Source: Paracoccaceae bacterium | GTDB taxonomy: Bacteria > Pseudomonadota > Alphaproteobacteria > Rhodospirillales > Rhodospirillaceae | Direction: 5' to 3' | Assembly (NCBI GenBank): GCA_020446775.1 | Contig: JAGREB010000034.1 | Span: forward strand, 1 to 39,259 | DNA: 39,259 nucleotides | Shown: positions 6,943-34,121 of the stretch, piece by piece | Layout of the letters: each line of letters opens with the position of its first letter | Numbering within the stretch: the stretch's first letter is position 1 | Made by a program: the position numbers and the translations under genes | The notes under the pieces: model-generated | Database searches by the model: none | What the model was told of the DNA's origin: nothing | Seen by the model: the letters and a program-made list of their open reading frames with translations, nothing else

Positions 6943-8279
6943 GCGTATTGCCCTCCGGTGATTTGTATTCCATCAATGGACCCCGGAAAGTAGCTTGCGC
7001 CGGCGCCGACAGTGTTGATGACGCCGTTCAATTCTGACTTGAACCGGTAGCCGGTAAGATTGCCGGGATTAACAAATATGGCGCGCGGCGCCGGCGCAAG
7101 CACGGCACCGGAAACAGTGGCATAGACAGTCGCGGTGACCGCGATCGCGCTGGCGAGCGTCAAGATCACGTTGGGGCTGATCTGAACGGTGCCGCCGCCC
7201 CCGTAGCCGACGAACAGATATGCGCTGTTTCCGGTGAAGCGATGATTGCCGCGAATTTCCACGTTGCCCCAAAACGACTGGAACACGCCGAACTGGCAAT
7301 AGCCGCTTTCGGTATATTGCGTGATCAGCGTTGAACTCGGCCCGGCGCTGGCACCCGACACCGCAGAAGTCGGGTTTCCAGTCGTCCAGCGCACCCCTTC
7401 CACCGTCATCGTGTTCGGGCCATTGACCCGAATGGCCGCGCTATTGCCGCCGTTAATGACGACATTCGACGGCGTGACCGCGTCGCCTGTGATCAGCAGG
7501 TCCGGCCCGCCCCGCAACGGCGTCGCAACAGGTCCGTATATACCGGGGGCGACGTGGATCGTAACCGTGTACTGGCTGGGCGGATACGAAAACGCGCGAT
7601 CGACGGCCACCTGAATGCTCGCCAGCGCCTTGCCGGCGACGTTGGCGGTCCCGTCATTCACATCGCTGCCGATCGCCGCGTTGACGTACAGATGCAGATT
7701 GCGCACCAACAGCCCGCGGCCGACAGCCGACAAAAGTTGGAAGTTGGTGCCATCAAACACATACTCCTGCACCGCGCCGGCCACCACGTCGCCATCGAGC
7801 AGGATGGAGCCGTCCCGCCGCACCACGTTGCGCGCACCAAGGCCATTGACGTTGAGCGTGGTGGCGCCGAAATTGGTTGTCGCCGCCTTGATCAGCAGGC
7901 GCAGGCCGGCCTTGTACTCGATCAGCGCCGGCGCCAGCGACACCTGCATCGCGCCGGCGACGCCGGTATCGACGCCATAGACAACCTGGCCGCGCTGCAC
8001 CAGTTGCTGCAGCGACTTGACCAGGCCGAAATCATCCAGGCCGTTCTCCGTGACGAGCGGCGTCGCCGCATCGTTGCGAACACCATTCATGCGCCACAGG
8101 TTGCGCAGAGCCGCCGCCATCCCATTCAGGAACGCGGCCGAGATATCGGTGCCGTCCTCGATATCCGGCGAGGTGCAGTCCTTAAACCAGGTGTCGGCGA
8201 CACCGAACGTCCGCGTGTCCGCCGGACGATCGGTGACGGAATAGGCGGCGTTTGCCGGCCCGAGAATATCATTCATCAA
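6939..8279 (-). CDS. Tail protein with beta-helix-like C-terminus
   Basis: 446 residues. The first 200 form an attachment region with the pattern of phage tail proteins (TDISAAFLNGMAAALRNL, then SLAPALIEYKAGLRLLIKA, TLNVNGLGARNVVRRDGS). Residues about 205-440 look like a right-handed beta-helix: VNAAIGSDVNDGTANVAGKA is the usual entry of pectate-lyase-like folds, followed by repeated short strands with Asn, Gly and Val (VVINGGNSAAIRVNGPNTM, NVEIRGNHRFTGNSAYLFVG). Such proteins bind or cut surface polysaccharide. No catalytic triad can be identified, so it may be a structural spike rather than a depolymerase. It overlaps the gp48-like gene by four bases. Confidence 0.75.
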   Translation of the reverse strand: MMNDILGPANAAYSVTDRPADTRTFGVADTWFKDCTSPDIEDGTDISAAFLNGMAAALRNLWRMNGVRNDAATPLVTENGLDDFGLVKSLQQLVQRGQVVYGVDTGVAGAMQVSLAPALIEYKAGLRLLIKAATTNFGATTLNVNGLGARNVVRRDGSILLDGDVVAGAVQEYVFDGTNFQLLSAVGRGLLVRNLHLYVNAAIGSDVNDGTANVAGKALASIQVAVDRAFSYPPSQYTVTIHVAPGIYGPVATPLRGGPDLLITGDAVTPSNVVINGGNSAAIRVNGPNTMTVEGVRWTTGNPTSAVSGASAGPSSTLITQYTESGYCQFGVFQSFWGNVEIRGNHRFTGNSAYLFVGYGGGGTVQISPNVILTLASAIAVTATVYATVSGAVLAPAPRAIFVNPGNLTGYRFKSELNGVINTVGAGASYFPGSIDGIQITGGQYA

Positions 8280-26865: not shown

Positions 26866-27441
26866 TCATTCCGTAACTTTATTGCCCTCCGCGATGGCAT
26901 CCAGCGCCGTAGCGATCGCCGACAGCATCTTTGTTTCGATCGCCTTCAAGGCGATGCGCAGTTCATGCGGGCCGCCGCGCGCCAGCGCGGAAGCGAGGAT
27001 GTCCGTTTCGTTCTGCAAGGTGCGCACCGTGCTGGTGATCGTTTCGCTCAAAGCATCAACCGCCGCGATCACATCATCGACCGGTACTAACCGCTTAAGT
27101 GCTTCCTCAAGGTCAAGGCGCTTGCGCTCGGCCTCGTACCAGGTCTTTTGCCGCAGCGCCTCGTCATACGAATCCCGCGCCGGTTCCTGTTCTTCCTCGC
27201 GCTCGGGCCGCTGATCTTTCGAGGGGTCACCATGGCGCTCGCGCAGCATGTCGTATTGCGCGACATTGACCTGAGCGACACGGCCGCGCTCGTCGCGATC
27301 GACATGCAGTCCATGCTGCTCGACCAGGCGCTTAACCTGTTGCGACACCGCTGGTCGCGACACGGCGTCGCGTGCGGCGATCTCGGCGATCGTCATCATC
27401 ACCGCCGCTGCCGGGGTGTTAAGCTCAAGCGCGCCGGTCAT
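26866..27441 (-). CDS. Terminase small subunit, Nu1-like
   Basis: 191 residues. The N-terminus has a winged-helix motif (MTIAEIAARDAVSRPAVSQQ, VKRLVEQHGLHVDRDERGRV), the middle is charged coiled coil (EREEEQEPARDSYDEALRQK and TWYEAERKRLDLEEALKRLV), and the C-terminal part helical. This is the design of lambda Nu1-type subunits that bind the cos region and recruit the large subunit. It lies directly before terL. It follows a 135-base GC-rich gap that could contain the packaging site. Confidence 0.82.
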   Translation of the reverse strand: MTGALELNTPAAAVMMTIAEIAARDAVSRPAVSQQVKRLVEQHGLHVDRDERGRVAQVNVAQYDMLRERHGDPSKDQRPEREEEQEPARDSYDEALRQKTWYEAERKRLDLEEALKRLVPVDDVIAAVDALSETITSTVRTLQNETDILASALARGGPHELRIALKAIETKMLSAIATALDAIAEGNKVTE

Positions 27442-28729: not shown

Positions 28730-29659
28730 TTAAGCCCGCGCCGCAAGGCGTTTCGCGCGCACCGCCGCGCGGTAATTCACCTCGCCGCGCCGCGCTTCGC
28801 GCTCGATCGACGATTCGACCGGCGGACCGGCAGCCGGCCGCTGCGGTTGCAAGCGCAGCTTTTCACCGAGCAGTCCCGGCGGCAAACCGTCCGACAGCAC
28901 GCGGGTGACAATCTCATCGTCCAGAATCCATGGCATCGCCGGCGCGGCCGGCGGTGTCGGTTCGAAAGATGTCAACTGGCCGGCCAGACCCGCAGCCAAT
29001 GACGCGAGCGCCGCGCGCCACGCAAAGTATTCGGCCCTCGCATCCCCCACGGCGAGAGGCGCCGGATCGTTCCAAACCAGGTGACAACGCGGCGCGCAGG
29101 CCAGATCATAGACACCGCGCGCTTGCGCCGCCCGGCCGCGGCGCGGGCGCAATTCGACCAGATGACCGTCCATCCCATATCCCTCAACGCGAGTCCGGGT
29201 GCGGAGCGACCCCGCCTTATCGCGGTATTCGTATTGCGCCGGATACGGCGACGCCATTTCAAACTGCCATGGCGGACGCCTGTGCAGCACGGCGTGAGAC
29301 ACAACAATCGCCTGCGGATTCCAGACCTTCATCAACAACGCAGCCGCAGCATCCCCCGCAATCGGCGCGAACTCACCCAGCATCAGCACCGCGTCGTCCA
29401 AGGTTTCGAGCCGCCCTTCCGTCACCAAACCGGACACAGCCTCCGCGACGAGCCAGGCATCGGGATGCGGCTCGCCCGGCACAAATCCAAAGCAGTCAAC
29501 GTCAGGCAAGACACCAGCGTTCAGCGCAAGAGAAAATGGACGCCGGCGGTGACGCCGACCGATGACGTGACCGATCTCGGCAGATACCGGCCGGCCCTTC
29601 GGCAATTCGTCGCGCATCGCCCACTGCAACAGCTTTTCGATGTCGATAAGTTTTTTCAT
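28730..29659 (-). CDS. Unknown 309-residue protein beside the iteron array
   Basis: From ATG 29659, with GAGG 11 bases upstream. No domain is recognised. Residues 1-45 are basic and helical (LIDIEKLLQWAMRDELPKGR). The middle has hydrophobic strands (WNPQAIVVSHAVLHRRPPWQ) and a segment of aromatic and charged residues (FEMASPYPAQYEYRDKAGSL). The C-terminal 60 residues are Arg- and Ala-rich helix. It is the only gene between the putative origin and the late operon and is probably expressed with the replication genes, whose transcript would cross the iterons, or from within the array. A DNA-binding or replication-control role is possible but unproven. Confidence 0.65.
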   Translation of the reverse strand: MKKLIDIEKLLQWAMRDELPKGRPVSAEIGHVIGRRHRRRPFSLALNAGVLPDVDCFGFVPGEPHPDAWLVAEAVSGLVTEGRLETLDDAVLMLGEFAPIAGDAAAALLMKVWNPQAIVVSHAVLHRRPPWQFEMASPYPAQYEYRDKAGSLRTRTRVEGYGMDGHLVELRPRRGRAAQARGVYDLACAPRCHLVWNDPAPLAVGDARAEYFAWRAALASLAAGLAGQLTSFEPTPPAAPAMPWILDDEIVTRVLSDGLPPGLLGEKLRLQPQRPAAGPPVESSIEREARRGEVNYRAAVRAKRLAARA

Positions 29660-29685
29660 CTGTTTTCGCCTCGATCGATAAGAGT

Positions 29686-29987
29686 GTGTAGGGTGTGTAG
29701 GGTGAGGGCCATTTTGTGTAGGGTCACGATCGACCCTACACACCAAAATTCCTTTTTAATTTCATATACTTATTTACTCGTGTGTAGGGTGTGTAGGGTT
29801 AAGCCTTGCGTTACGTGTGAAATTTATCTGAAAAGCATGCCCCCGAACCCCCAAGGTGAAATTTGCATAGTATAGGGTCCGCAACCCTACACACCCTACA
29901 CGCCACCAGATAACATCTTGATCCGCCGGCGCTTTTCGGCCGTGTAGGGTTGCCTGCGACCCTACACACACCCTTCACACCCTACAC
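29686..29987. repeat. Iteron array of 9-mer GTGTAGGGT, candidate replication origin
   Basis: Thirteen copies in 302 bases. Top-strand copies start at 29686, 29695, 29716, 29782, 29791, 29870 and 29942; reverse-complement copies start at 29733, 29884, 29893, 29959, 29970 and 29979. Eleven are exact; those at 29870 and 29970 have one mismatch. Several are head-to-tail pairs at exactly 9 bases and others form inverted pairs. The array begins one base after the helicase stop codon and ends just before the next gene start. P4-type replication proteins bind short iterons of similar size beside their gene, so this is probably the origin. It may also act as an operator. Confidence 0.8.
29742..29780. 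other. AT-rich island within the iteron array
   Basis: About 39 bases of mostly A and T between the third/fourth and fifth/sixth repeats, in a strongly GC-rich genome (CTTTTTAATTTCATATAC is its core). Such islands beside iterons commonly serve as the strand-opening site. It could also hold a promoter for the 309-residue gene. Confidence 0.6.
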
Positions 29988-29988
29988 A

Positions 29989-31824
29989 CTAGACGGGCGC
30001 CAACTCGTCATTGTCGGCCGGATGCGGCGGATCGTCGTCACGGCGACGGCGCGTCGGCACGTTCTTCAAGGTGACATGCAGGTAGCGCACGCCGTCGCGG
30101 TGCCGCTCTTTCTGAAAGCCTTTGGTTGCCATGGCCTCGGCGAAGCTCTTTTCCCGCCACGGCCGCACCGCGCTGTTTTCCGCCCACGCGGCGAAAGCGT
30201 CATACATCTGGCGGGCCGGCACCGTGCTCGCCGGCGTGCCGTCCGGGTGCGAGGCCACCGCCTCGACGCAGATGCCACAGAAGGTGCCGACCGGGTCCAT
30301 TTCCTCGCGGTAATCGGCGGTCGCGTCGATCACCTCCTGCGGCGGGCGCAAGCCATGATTGAGGTAATCGAGCGCGCCAGCGATCAGCCAATTGAGGATG
30401 CCGGCGCGTTCCTCCCACAGTTCGGCCAGCACCTCGTTCATCGGCCGCCGCTCGTGCTTGGCGATCGACACCGGCCACGGCACGAAGTTGATCCGACGCC
30501 AGATGCCCTCATCGACGCCGCTGATTTGCGGCTTGTGGTTGCCCGCGAGCGACAGCTTGAAATCCGGCGTGAACTCAAAAAAGTCCTTGAAGTTGTGCCG
30601 CGTCAGCATCGGCTCGCCGCCGGTCAACGACTTGATCAGCGCTTCCTTGAACTGCACGCCGCGCTCCGGTTCGGAGGCCCGCACCAGTCGCGCGCCCGGC
30701 AAGCGCGCAATGTCGGGCGAGGCCTGCGAGCCGTTCTTTTGCCCGTCGCCGGCGAGCGATTCGAACGCGATGGTGGCGCAATACGGCCCCATGATCCGTG
30801 CGACAATCTCGGTAAAGGTCGATTTCCAGTTCGATCCTGTTCCATAATTGAAGATCAGGCATTGCTCGCCGGTCAGGCCGGTGAGCGCATAGCCGTGATA
30901 ACGCTGCACGAACTTGCGCACCGGCTCGATCGGCTGAAACCGCTTGACCGCCGCCAAAAAGCGCGGGCACGTCGCCGCGCGGTCATATTCAACCGGCGCC
31001 ACCTTGCTGATATTGTCGGCGCGATCGTGCGGGCGTAGCTCGACGCGGTAGCGCTTCACGGTGCGGTCGGAATGATCCGAGGCGTCCGGGTCCGGCTCGT
31101 CGGTGCCGATGAAATGCAGGGTGCCGTTGGCGACGTTGAACGCGCGCTTGTTGCCGTCCAGTTCATCGGTGCGGATGGTCCGATGCGGCAAGGCCTGATC
31201 GAGCATGCCGCGTATCTTTCCCGCGTTGCCCGAGGACACCGCATATTTGCGCCGCGCGATCTGCCGCGCCTGCAACTGCGCGCGCGCCCAGGCGCCGGCA
31301 TCGACCGCCTGCTGCAGGTCGCGCTTGCGCGCCTTCTGTTCGTCGGTCAATTCCTTGACCTTGTCGATCGCCGCAAGCGCGGCGGCGGTATCGTCGGCGG
31401 CTTCGATCAGCGCGGCCTCGTGCGGCGTGTGCGCAAGGAAGTCCGCTTCGAGCACGATCCGCGTCGCCGTGGCTTGGGCGCGACGCACCGCGATCTCCTG
31501 ACCGCCTTCGCGTTCCCAATGCGTCCCGGTCCACGCGTGCCAGCCCACATCGCGCACGTTGAGCAGGTCCTGGCCGAAATGATGCAGCAACCGCTGGCCG
31601 TTGCCGGTGTCGTTCTGAGGCTCGCGCGCGCACACGGCGATCACCTCAAGGCTAATCGAGGCGGCATCGTCGGGCGGCGTTCCTTCCGATTCGCCATCGT
31701 CCTCGCCCAGCCATTGGGGGGACCCCGCCAACGCGGGGTGTGGGGCGACGACGGGCGCGGCAGCGGGCGCGCCTTCGATGTAGTCGGCGAGATCGGAATA
31801 GGGATCGGAATCGTGGTCGGTCAT
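29989..31824 (-). CDS. P4/D5-type SF3 replicative helicase
   Basis: 611 residues from ATG 31824. Residues about 60-270 form a D5_N-like region (NDTGNGQRLLHHFGQDLLNV, WHAWTGTHWEREGGQEIAVR). The SF3 ATPase follows: FNYGTGSNWKSTFTEIVARI as motif A, RLVRASEPERGVQFKEALIK as motif B and LAGNHKPQISGVDEGIWRRI as motif C with the arginine finger. The conserved Gly before Lys in motif A is Trp here. The C-terminal 100 residues contain a winged-helix pattern (YDAFAAWAENSAVRPWREKS) suited to DNA binding. It should unwind the phage origin and probably recognises the iterons just downstream. It is coupled to the separate primase gene by a 29-base gap. Confidence 0.9.
   Translation of the reverse strand: MTDHDSDPYSDLADYIEGAPAAAPVVAPHPALAGSPQWLGEDDGESEGTPPDDAASISLEVIAVCAREPQNDTGNGQRLLHHFGQDLLNVRDVGWHAWTGTHWEREGGQEIAVRRAQATATRIVLEADFLAHTPHEAALIEAADDTAAALAAIDKVKELTDEQKARKRDLQQAVDAGAWARAQLQARQIARRKYAVSSGNAGKIRGMLDQALPHRTIRTDELDGNKRAFNVANGTLHFIGTDEPDPDASDHSDRTVKRYRVELRPHDRADNISKVAPVEYDRAATCPRFLAAVKRFQPIEPVRKFVQRYHGYALTGLTGEQCLIFNYGTGSNWKSTFTEIVARIMGPYCATIAFESLAGDGQKNGSQASPDIARLPGARLVRASEPERGVQFKEALIKSLTGGEPMLTRHNFKDFFEFTPDFKLSLAGNHKPQISGVDEGIWRRINFVPWPVSIAKHERRPMNEVLAELWEERAGILNWLIAGALDYLNHGLRPPQEVIDATADYREEMDPVGTFCGICVEAVASHPDGTPASTVPARQMYDAFAAWAENSAVRPWREKSFAEAMATKGFQKERHRDGVRYLHVTLKNVPTRRRRDDDPPHPADNDELAPV
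31718..31745. repeat. Palindromic GC element, copy 1 (inside helicase gene)
   Basis: GGGGACCCC then CCAACGCGGGGTG with a perfect ACCCCGC/GCGGGGT stem around CAAC. A closely related sequence is at 34082-34111. It encodes the low-complexity HPALAGSPQ linker of the helicase, where an inserted element would do little harm. Confidence 0.45.
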
Positions 31825-31853: not shown

Positions 31854-33167
31854 TTAATCTCGCGCCGGGCGGGGAAGCATGTCGTTGAAATCGTGACCAT
31901 CGGCGGCAAAGCATACGCGCACGATGCGATTGTCCCGCGCGTGGCGGACACCGGCGCGCGCAAGCGCGTGCCGCGTCAGCACGGGATCGGAATCGCCGTC
32001 GCCGAGCAGGATCAGATCCTCGATCGTCTCTGGCACCGGCATCGCCGGCGACGACAAATCAGGCTCGGGACCGGGCACGCGCTGCGGCCGTCCAGCGTCG
32101 GCTTTCAAGGTCGGATGCGCGACCGTCGCCGACGCCTTGCCGGCGAGGTTGCCGAGATCGCCGGCGCAGCGGAACAGATCGCCCGGCTTGAGACGCCGGG
32201 CGCGCGCCATCGCCGTGAAGGGCGACAGCACGGTTTCGATCCCCTCGCCCGAGATCATGCGGCGATAGCTGCCATCGTTGCACGGCCAGCCGCCGAGATC
32301 GATGTAGCCGCCGCGTTTGGTGCCGCGCATCTTTTTCGCGATCAGCACCTCGCCGGTGTCGGGATGGACGATCAGCGCCTTGCCCTTGTTCTTGCGCAAG
32401 GCGGCGACGATCGCGTCCGGCGCCGCCGCGCCATCGGCAAACACCGGATCGAGCCAGGTGATATGCAGGCCGATAAAGGCGCCGGCGATATCGAAGAAAG
32501 GCGCCAGCATCGCCGGGCCGGTGTGGATCAGCAGCGGCTCGTTTTCGCGGCCGTCCGCAAAATACGGCATCGCGGCGTGCGTGCGCAGTTGCGCCGAGCG
32601 CGGCACCAGCAGGCCGCGCCCGGCCAGATAGCGGCGATGCGCATCACCGGCCGCCTCATTCCAGAACCGCAACAGCCGCTTGCGTTCGCGCTCGCGGGCG
32701 AACATCTCATAATCGGCGCGGCGCTTTGCGGTGCGCCAACCGTCGCGCCAGGCCGCGACCAGCTCGGGCCGTCCGTCATAGGCCGGCGGCACGTTGAGCG
32801 GATCGTCGAGCGCGACGCCGGCGTCATAGTCTTTCATACCGCGCTTGCGAGCGAGCGCCGGCGTCGGCGCTTCATCGCGCACACCGCCGAGGCGATCAAG
32901 CGCGGTGCGAAAATCGACACCCTCGCGCTTCATCACCAGCCGGATCACGTCACCGCCATCCCCGCACACCGCGCACACCCACTTGTCGGCGTCACATTCG
33001 AAACGACCGGCGGATTTCGAGTTGCTGTTGCGCGAGCAGATCGGGCACGGACCGACGAATTGACCTCGCCGCTCGGGACCCTTACGGCGCAGCGTCACCC
33101 ATTGTGCGGCCACCTGATCGACCGGATTGCGATCTTTCAGCGCAGCGAGCGCATCATCGGAAATCAT
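31854..33167 (-). CDS. Zinc-finger/Toprim DNA primase
   Basis: 437 residues from ATG 33167, with AGAGGTG upstream. Residues about 28-75 carry a CHC2-type zinc finger in which two CxxC pairs are seen (CPICSRNSNS and CAVCGDGGDVIRLVM). Residues about 300-430 hold a Toprim domain: MISGEGIETVLSPFTAMARA with the metal-binding Glu, LILLGDGDSDPVLTRHALAR with the DxD region and FAADGHDFNDML. Together these make RNA primers on single-stranded DNA. In phage P4 primase and helicase lie in one protein; here they are separate, adjacent genes. The promoter probably lies in the 69-base divergent region shared with brnT, so antitoxin binding there might also regulate replication. Confidence 0.9.
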   Translation of the reverse strand: MISDDALAALKDRNPVDQVAAQWVTLRRKGPERRGQFVGPCPICSRNSNSKSAGRFECDADKWVCAVCGDGGDVIRLVMKREGVDFRTALDRLGGVRDEAPTPALARKRGMKDYDAGVALDDPLNVPPAYDGRPELVAAWRDGWRTAKRRADYEMFARERERKRLLRFWNEAAGDAHRRYLAGRGLLVPRSAQLRTHAAMPYFADGRENEPLLIHTGPAMLAPFFDIAGAFIGLHITWLDPVFADGAAAPDAIVAALRKNKGKALIVHPDTGEVLIAKKMRGTKRGGYIDLGGWPCNDGSYRRMISGEGIETVLSPFTAMARARRLKPGDLFRCAGDLGNLAGKASATVAHPTLKADAGRPQRVPGPEPDLSSPAMPVPETIEDLILLGDGDSDPVLTRHALARAGVRHARDNRIVRVCFAADGHDFNDMLPRPARD

Positions 33168-33183
33168 CCGCGCACCTCTTTTT

Positions 33184-33787: not shown

Positions 33788-34121
33788 TCATTCCGCTGCC
33801 TCGATCGCTACGCCATCATCCGCTGACGCGGCACGCTCGGCTGTTGCGATCTCGCGCAGACGCGCCTTGATCGCCGCGTCGGCGCTGACGCGCTCGATCA
33901 GCCGGCAGATCGCGGCAAAGACATCGCGCGCGTGGATCGCATCGCGGATAGCGCCGCGCAGCACCGGCGACCGATCGGTGAGGCTGCGTTCGGTGAGCGA
34001 GCGCAACCTCACGTCGGCGCGCGTATACTCGCTTTCCGACGCGCGCCACAGCACGCCCCATGACAGCGCAGACGCAACCTCGGGGACCCCTTCCAACGGG
34101 GGGGTGCGGGGTATCAGTCAT
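33788..34121 (-). pseudogene. Small helical protein with a probable frame break in a C7 run
   Basis: The ATG at 34121 overlaps the stop of the upstream methyltransferase-like gene (ATGA), as elsewhere in this operon, and reads MTDTPHPP before a run of seven C. Staying in frame gives an arginine-rich non-protein-like sequence. One base fewer in the run joins MTDTPHPP to the frame that encodes LEGVPEVASALSWGVLWRAS and a helical domain (VFAAICRLIERVSADAAIKA, RLREIATAERAASADD) ending at 33788. Either the gene is broken, the run is mis-sequenced, or ribosomes shift. A separate TTG start at 34096 is possible. No function known. Confidence 0.5.
34082..34111. repeat. Palindromic GC element, copy 2
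   Basis: GGGGACCCC then CCAACGGGGGGGTG with an ACCCC/GGGGT stem, resembling the element at 31718-31745. It contains the seven-base run at which the small gene loses its frame. Confidence 0.4.

Follow-up and report, generated by a model that had tools for sequence, protein, structure and literature searches.

Organization of the locus

The window, the whole 39,259-nucleotide stretch of DNA that we analyzed, carries a dense cluster of 9-base repeats beside a helicase gene. A motif search of the window allowing one mismatch found 13 copies of GTGTAGGGT within positions 29686 to 29987, 11 of them exact and two with one mismatch (GTATAGGGT at 29870 and GTGAAGGGT at 29970), in agreement with the 11 exact and two near-exact copies in 302 bases counted in the first-pass annotation. 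Elsewhere in the window there was a single copy, with one mismatch, at 7353, and shuffles of the whole window gave a mean of 1.8 copies and a maximum of 6. Copy pairs at a pitch of exactly 9 bases, also reported earlier, occur at 29686/29695, 29782/29791, 29884/29893, and 29970/29979. The array is separated from the end of the helicase open reading frame (29989 to 29991, minus strand) by one base, 29988, as had been noted, and its repeated short sites thus begin at the helicase stop, the placement of an iteron origin directly 3′ of its initiator gene. The AT-rich island described between the copies was found at 29744 to 29781; it is 79% A+T, tied for the highest value among 38-mers of the window, whose overall A+T content is 36%. 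The features are as follows.

29686 to 29987, no strand, iteron array and proposed replication origin, mirror axis at 29841.5
29686 to 29724, plus strand, outer copies of the helicase-distal half (three, with one empty slot)
29733 to 29741, minus strand, inverted copy of the helicase-distal half, about 104 from the axis
29744 to 29781, no strand, AT-rich island (79% A+T), candidate melting region
29782 to 29799, plus strand, inner tandem pair of the helicase-distal half
29840 to 29852, minus strand, GGGGGTTCGGGGG element at the mirror axis, on the helicase-sense strand
29870 to 29878, plus strand, extra one-mismatch copy GTATAGGGT in the central spacer, without a mirror partner
29884 to 29901, minus strand, inner tandem pair of the helicase-proximal half
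29942 to 29950, plus strand, inverted copy of the helicase-proximal half, about 104 from the axis
29959 to 29987, minus strand, outer triplet of the helicase-proximal half, with one mismatch in the middle copy
28730 to 29659, minus strand, phrog_9306 gene, first past the array, with conservation confined to the vicinity of close relatives
29989 to 31824, minus strand, D5/SF3-type helicase, probable initiator, with its start taken at MTDHDSD (the frame is open from 31914)
30057 to 30225, minus strand, C-terminal winged-helix domain of the helicase (residues 534 to 590), probable iteron reader
31854 to 33170, minus strand, separate primase with a CHC2 zinc ribbon and a Toprim domain, upstream of the helicase

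Past the phrog_9306 gene lie terminase, portal, capsid, tail sheath, and baseplate genes, and because of these the window is identified as a contractile-tailed phage or prophage rather than a PICI satellite, which would lack capsid and tail genes of its own. Upstream of the replication genes, between 34118 and 38554 on the minus strand, are a putative DNA methyltransferase gene (phrog_757) and deoxyribosyltransferase-like, N6/N4 DNA methylase, and SNF2-type helicase genes.

GC skew did not switch at the array; DnaA boxes numbered 10 in comparison to 7.9 expected by chance, with none in the array, which is not the picture of a DnaA-dependent origin. Rfam contained no family matching the array locus, querying phage records with the nucleotide sequence of the array returned no match, and a text search of the literature with the 9-mer GTGTAGGGT returned unrelated papers only.

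The helicase and its C-terminal domain

The identification of the neighboring gene as a P4/D5-type helicase held up: the D5_N (4.3e-18) and Pox_D5 (9.7e-05) domains, with the ATPase between them, both scored above the Pfam cut-offs, and the model fold of the protein resembles hexameric D5-type helicases. The helicase also matched PDB entry 7ola by sequence (E=8e-12); the PDB table entry reads just "DNA primase", and we take it to be SaPI5 Rep. The C-terminus had been suspected of being a winged helix, and the model of this domain (pLDDT 91) aligned to the P4 origin-binding domain 1ka8 with a Z of 8.7, an rmsd of 2.3, and 22% identity over 78 of 100 residues. This alignment came from a later VIA-align comparison; in a Foldseek search with the C-terminal model, the P4 domain was not among the best 50 matches. 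Because other winged helices score close by, the fold alone is not decisive. From the model, the protein is predicted to have the C-terminal winged-helix domain characteristic of origin-binding helicases of the D5/SF3 type.

Mirror symmetry of the array

The first-pass annotation had described the copies as being of mixed orientation, and both orientations are indeed present; what it missed is that the array forms a single, imperfect mirror image centered on 29841.5, the copies running +,+,+,−,+,+ on one side and −,−,+,−,−,− on the other. Each half has six copies; the copy at 29870 is additional to these, and one slot is empty. The two opposed iteron sets are clear, and the AT-rich island lies inside one half, off the mirror axis.

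When motifs were refined, at least eight sites were mirrored about an axis in 41 arrays found beside related helicases (the survey is described below), and these fell into two layouts. The layout of the window array, shared by 24 arrays, has copies facing the axis at distances of about 45, 54, 120, 130, and 140 bases and an inverted copy at about 102; the second, seen in 17 arrays, has copies at about 42, 51, 60, 128, 149, and 157 and in most cases lacks the inverted copy. Six was the modal number of copies per half in both layouts (23 of 48 and 16 of 34 halves, with a range of 4 to 8), and it is a mode, not a rule. Mirror symmetry reached p<0.05 by gap shuffling in 43 of the 82 arrays found independently of the motif, and by orientation shuffling, a test with little power, in 9 of 87. 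Choosing symmetrical arrays would not by itself fix the distances that they share. A geometry template derived solely from arrays of other motifs and run blind over the whole window placed its best axis at 29841.5 with a score of 101 out of 108 (next best 78, mean 64, sd 3.8), and the consensus that it returned was GTGTAGGGT. An axis at 29837 (score 85), obtained with whole-number axes, was superseded when half-base axes were allowed, giving 29841.5 and the score of 101.

The central spacers of several arrays (L073, L077, L092, L101, and others) contain alternating purine-pyrimidine runs beside the axis, for example TACGCGTATGCGCGCGCG, and are flanked about the axis by CATATGAG / CTCATATG arms; these are possibly easily deformed DNA.

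A G-rich element at the axis

Also overlooked earlier was a G-rich element at the center of the array, GGGGGTTCGGGGG, which lies at the axis on the helicase-sense strand (29852 to 29840). A sequence of the form GGGGnnnGGGG occurred near the axis on the helicase-sense strand in 30 of 57 arrays (among them L023, L026, L027, L044, and L083) and on the other strand in none; at random places the frequency was 1.9%. Across loci, GGGGnnnGGGG clustered in the 250 bases nearest the helicase stop, and the complementary CCCCGCACCCC type was found no more than 60 bases from the stop in 36 of 155 loci. The element was present in 25 of 39 arrays with a separate Toprim primase and in 5 of 18 without (p=0.02), a weak test, given the limited flanks, to which we attach no weight. 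The element may serve as the start of priming, mark a strand for melting, or bind a host factor. We also observed CCCCGCACCCC, the reverse complement type of the axis element, immediately after the stop in many arrays of the second layout (L101, L071, L094, L111, L034, and others), and two more G-rich copies of the axis type, GGGGGGGTGCGGGG and GGGGTGCGGGG, far from the array at window positions 34098 and 34841.

Arrays beside related helicases

An array was present directly past the stop in all seven close relatives of the helicase (52 to 68% identity, from viral contigs), so that the absence beside close homologues which the first-pass annotation had named as evidence against its reading was not seen. 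The repeats in these relatives had drifted or were different, being CTGTAGGG in L024 and L026, GTGTAGGGATGTAGGG in L029, and GGTGACGGA in L027 and L028; repeats of relatives also include GCGAGGGT and GGTGACGG. When the doubled 9-mer alone was searched for, without regard to any protein, 18 stretches came up; in eight of them a distant D5 helicase (26 to 34% identity by tblastn) ended about 0 to 180 bases from the repeats, and several of the others are contig ends. The exact 9-mer is not conserved, and because of this searching with GTGTAGGGT alone understates the conservation of the array. The genes beyond the array differ in these eight loci, and for this reason we assign the array to the helicase. 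Doubled GTGTAGGGT was also seen in viral contigs with no D5 helicase in the fetched stretch, in L007, L012, and L017, which are one family, and in L006, L013, L011, and L020; in L006 and L013 it lies close to a gene for an ATPase with a Walker A motif, possibly a terminase.

For a survey independent of any one motif, 198 loci with a helicase frame were reduced to 155 non-redundant loci with sufficient downstream sequence. In the 450 bases after the stop we took the 9-mer family with the most members, counting both strands and allowing one mismatch, and scored an array when it had at least two copies more than in all 40 shuffles. The test was positive in 87 of 155 loci; when the eight loci that had been found by motif were left out, an array immediately followed the stop in 82 of 147. 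As controls, regions further downstream were positive in 5 of 133 and 3 of 122 cases, upstream regions in 1 of 136 and 1 of 125, and the last 450 bases of the gene in 0 of 147. By the same test no array was found in 65 of the 147 relatives, nor beside the BPP-1 and RcRhea helicases. The repeat sequences were very diverse across the surveyed loci.

These results bear on whether the repeats are instead operators, through which the helicase or another phage protein controls downstream transcription while replication starts elsewhere. The repeats do lie between two genes of the same direction, and initiators of the D5 helicase kind can also regulate by binding. Against this, no sigma-70-like promoter was found in 29500 to 30200, 13 sites over 302 bases in a fixed mirrored geometry would be large for an operator, and among distant relatives it is the downstream gene that varies while the array stays with the helicase; we consider this explanation very improbable.

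Co-change of repeat and winged helix

Over 57 arrays, the distance between motifs correlated with the distance between winged helices (r=0.50) and with that between ATPase domains (r=0.42). In partial Mantel tests, which correct only partly for the kinship of helicases with similar winged helices, the correlation was 0.32 for the winged helix given the ATPase (p=0.001) and 0.11 for the ATPase given the winged helix. The most telling single residues included 577 to 579, in the wing, and 554 to 560, at the start of the recognition helix in the model. On sequence comparison, this co-change is the pattern that would be predicted if the winged helix read the repeat directly.

Comparison with known origins

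In the P4 record, type 1 repeats occur in both orientations at a pitch of 9 to 11 bases in ori and crr, and the earlier statement that mixed orientation sets the array apart from P4 therefore fails. The likeness includes 9-base iterons in both orientations read by a helicase C-terminal winged helix (here predicted), and crr lies just past the alpha gene as the array lies past the helicase gene. The six sites of P4 ori (+,+,+,−,+,+ at 0, 10, 21, 42, 86, and 96) and the helicase-proximal half of the window array (the same signs at 0, 9, 20, 37, 86, and 95) correspond closely. P4 crr provides a looser match: its tandem pair is reversed and is followed after 44 bases by a copy in the opposite orientation, as expected of the far half. 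In P4, however, ori is about 4.7 kb from crr, whereas here the two halves adjoin in one mirror structure, and the P4 motif GGTGAACAG differs from GTGTAGGGT. The P4 primase is fused to the helicase in alpha; here the primase is a gene of its own (31854 to 33170, with the helicase at 29989 to 31824), a difference that the first-pass annotation had recognized correctly.

The P4 comparison raises the alternative that the repeats bind the helicase but act chiefly in copy control, in incompatibility, or, as crr does, as an accessory cis site, and that replication starts elsewhere, since P4 has both ori and crr and crr occupies the place of the array. We found no second GTGTAGGGT cluster in the window, so that it does not have two cis sites in the manner of P4 ori and crr, and no further site with the doubled repeat in the 3.2-Mb assembly; the array, moreover, contains equivalents of both P4 halves together with the AT-rich island. 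We regard an accessory role as very improbable.

Other helicases of this type provide further parallels. The C-terminal domains of SaPI Rep and of Cch2 of SCCmec bind repeats just past their genes (PMC7581432); PICIs, for which the same placement is reported with plasmid assays, have two iteron sets around an AT-rich region (PMC6092414); and for the oppositely oriented SaPI repeats, two head-to-head hexamers have been proposed to load (PMC9894130). According to these papers, the iteron origin directly follows a D5-type helicase gene, as here. The present locus differs in belonging to a tailed phage that itself encodes terminase, capsid, sheath, and baseplate and in having a Toprim primase, whereas that of SaPI/PICI is archaeo-eukaryotic.

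In Lactobacillus phage A2 a mirrored array lies inside the annotated rep_origin, immediately after a D5-type primase/helicase gene, and in Streptococcus phage Sfi21 the annotated 302-bp origin follows the primase and has six mirrored RGTTACT pairs (gap-shuffle p=0.05). PMC6356513 cites work in which the Sfi21 origin functioned as an independent origin. These origins differ from the window array in their repeats (ACGGGAGGA in A2, RGTTACT in Sfi21) and in an AT-rich center from which the GGGGnnnGGGG element is absent. Sfi21 also bears on whether the repeats serve instead for packaging (pac/cos) or for binding terminase, which the terminase genes about 2.2 kb from the array (TerS 26866 to 27441) might suggest: the annotated cos of Sfi21 is 6 kb from its annotated origin. 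As the array accompanies helicases in loci with other neighbors, and its motif changes along with the helicase winged helix, a packaging site is in our judgment very improbable.

Arrays of this kind are thus already known from P4, A2, Sfi21, and SaPI/PICI. New here are the geometry common to different motifs, the match to half of the P4 origin, and the one-stranded GGGGnnnGGGG at the axis.

A model for origin function

We think it very likely that the array is the replication origin of the tailed phage, that the adjoining D5 helicase binds it, that two opposed hexamers load there, and that the Toprim primase starts replication bidirectionally. The first-pass annotation had read the array as an origin, and this reading is supported by the conserved placement of arrays, by the co-change of motif and winged helix, and by the same arrangement in phages with annotated origins. 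Weighing against it are the lack of a GC-skew switch, the off-axis position of the AT-rich island, the relatives in which no array was scored, and the variable number of copies per half. We propose that the helicase would bind the 9-base repeats through its C-terminal winged helix, about six repeats per mirror half positioning one hexamer, and that two hexamers would load face to face around the central spacer. Once loaded, the rings would open AT-rich DNA lying between them or to one side, after which the Toprim primase, the product of its own gene, would begin synthesis both ways.

A broader proposal, which we put forward tentatively and with slightly less than even confidence, is that such origins share a fixed scaffold of about 12 slots, six per mirror half and one for each subunit of two hexamers, in which the repeat is swapped wholesale along with the winged helix. 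P4 ori and crr would be the halves of this scaffold moved apart, and the strand-specific GGGGnnnGGGG at the axis would be a further, undescribed part of the origin.

For many phage genomes, these results offer a rule for finding the origin, namely to seek a mirrored array just past the stop of the D5 helicase gene. The loci also form a natural series of matched protein-DNA pairs in which to study how a winged helix picks its site. The suggested correspondence of one repeat to one helicase subunit provides a testable loading geometry for opposed hexamers, and the mirror arrangement may explain why P4 needs two separate sites.
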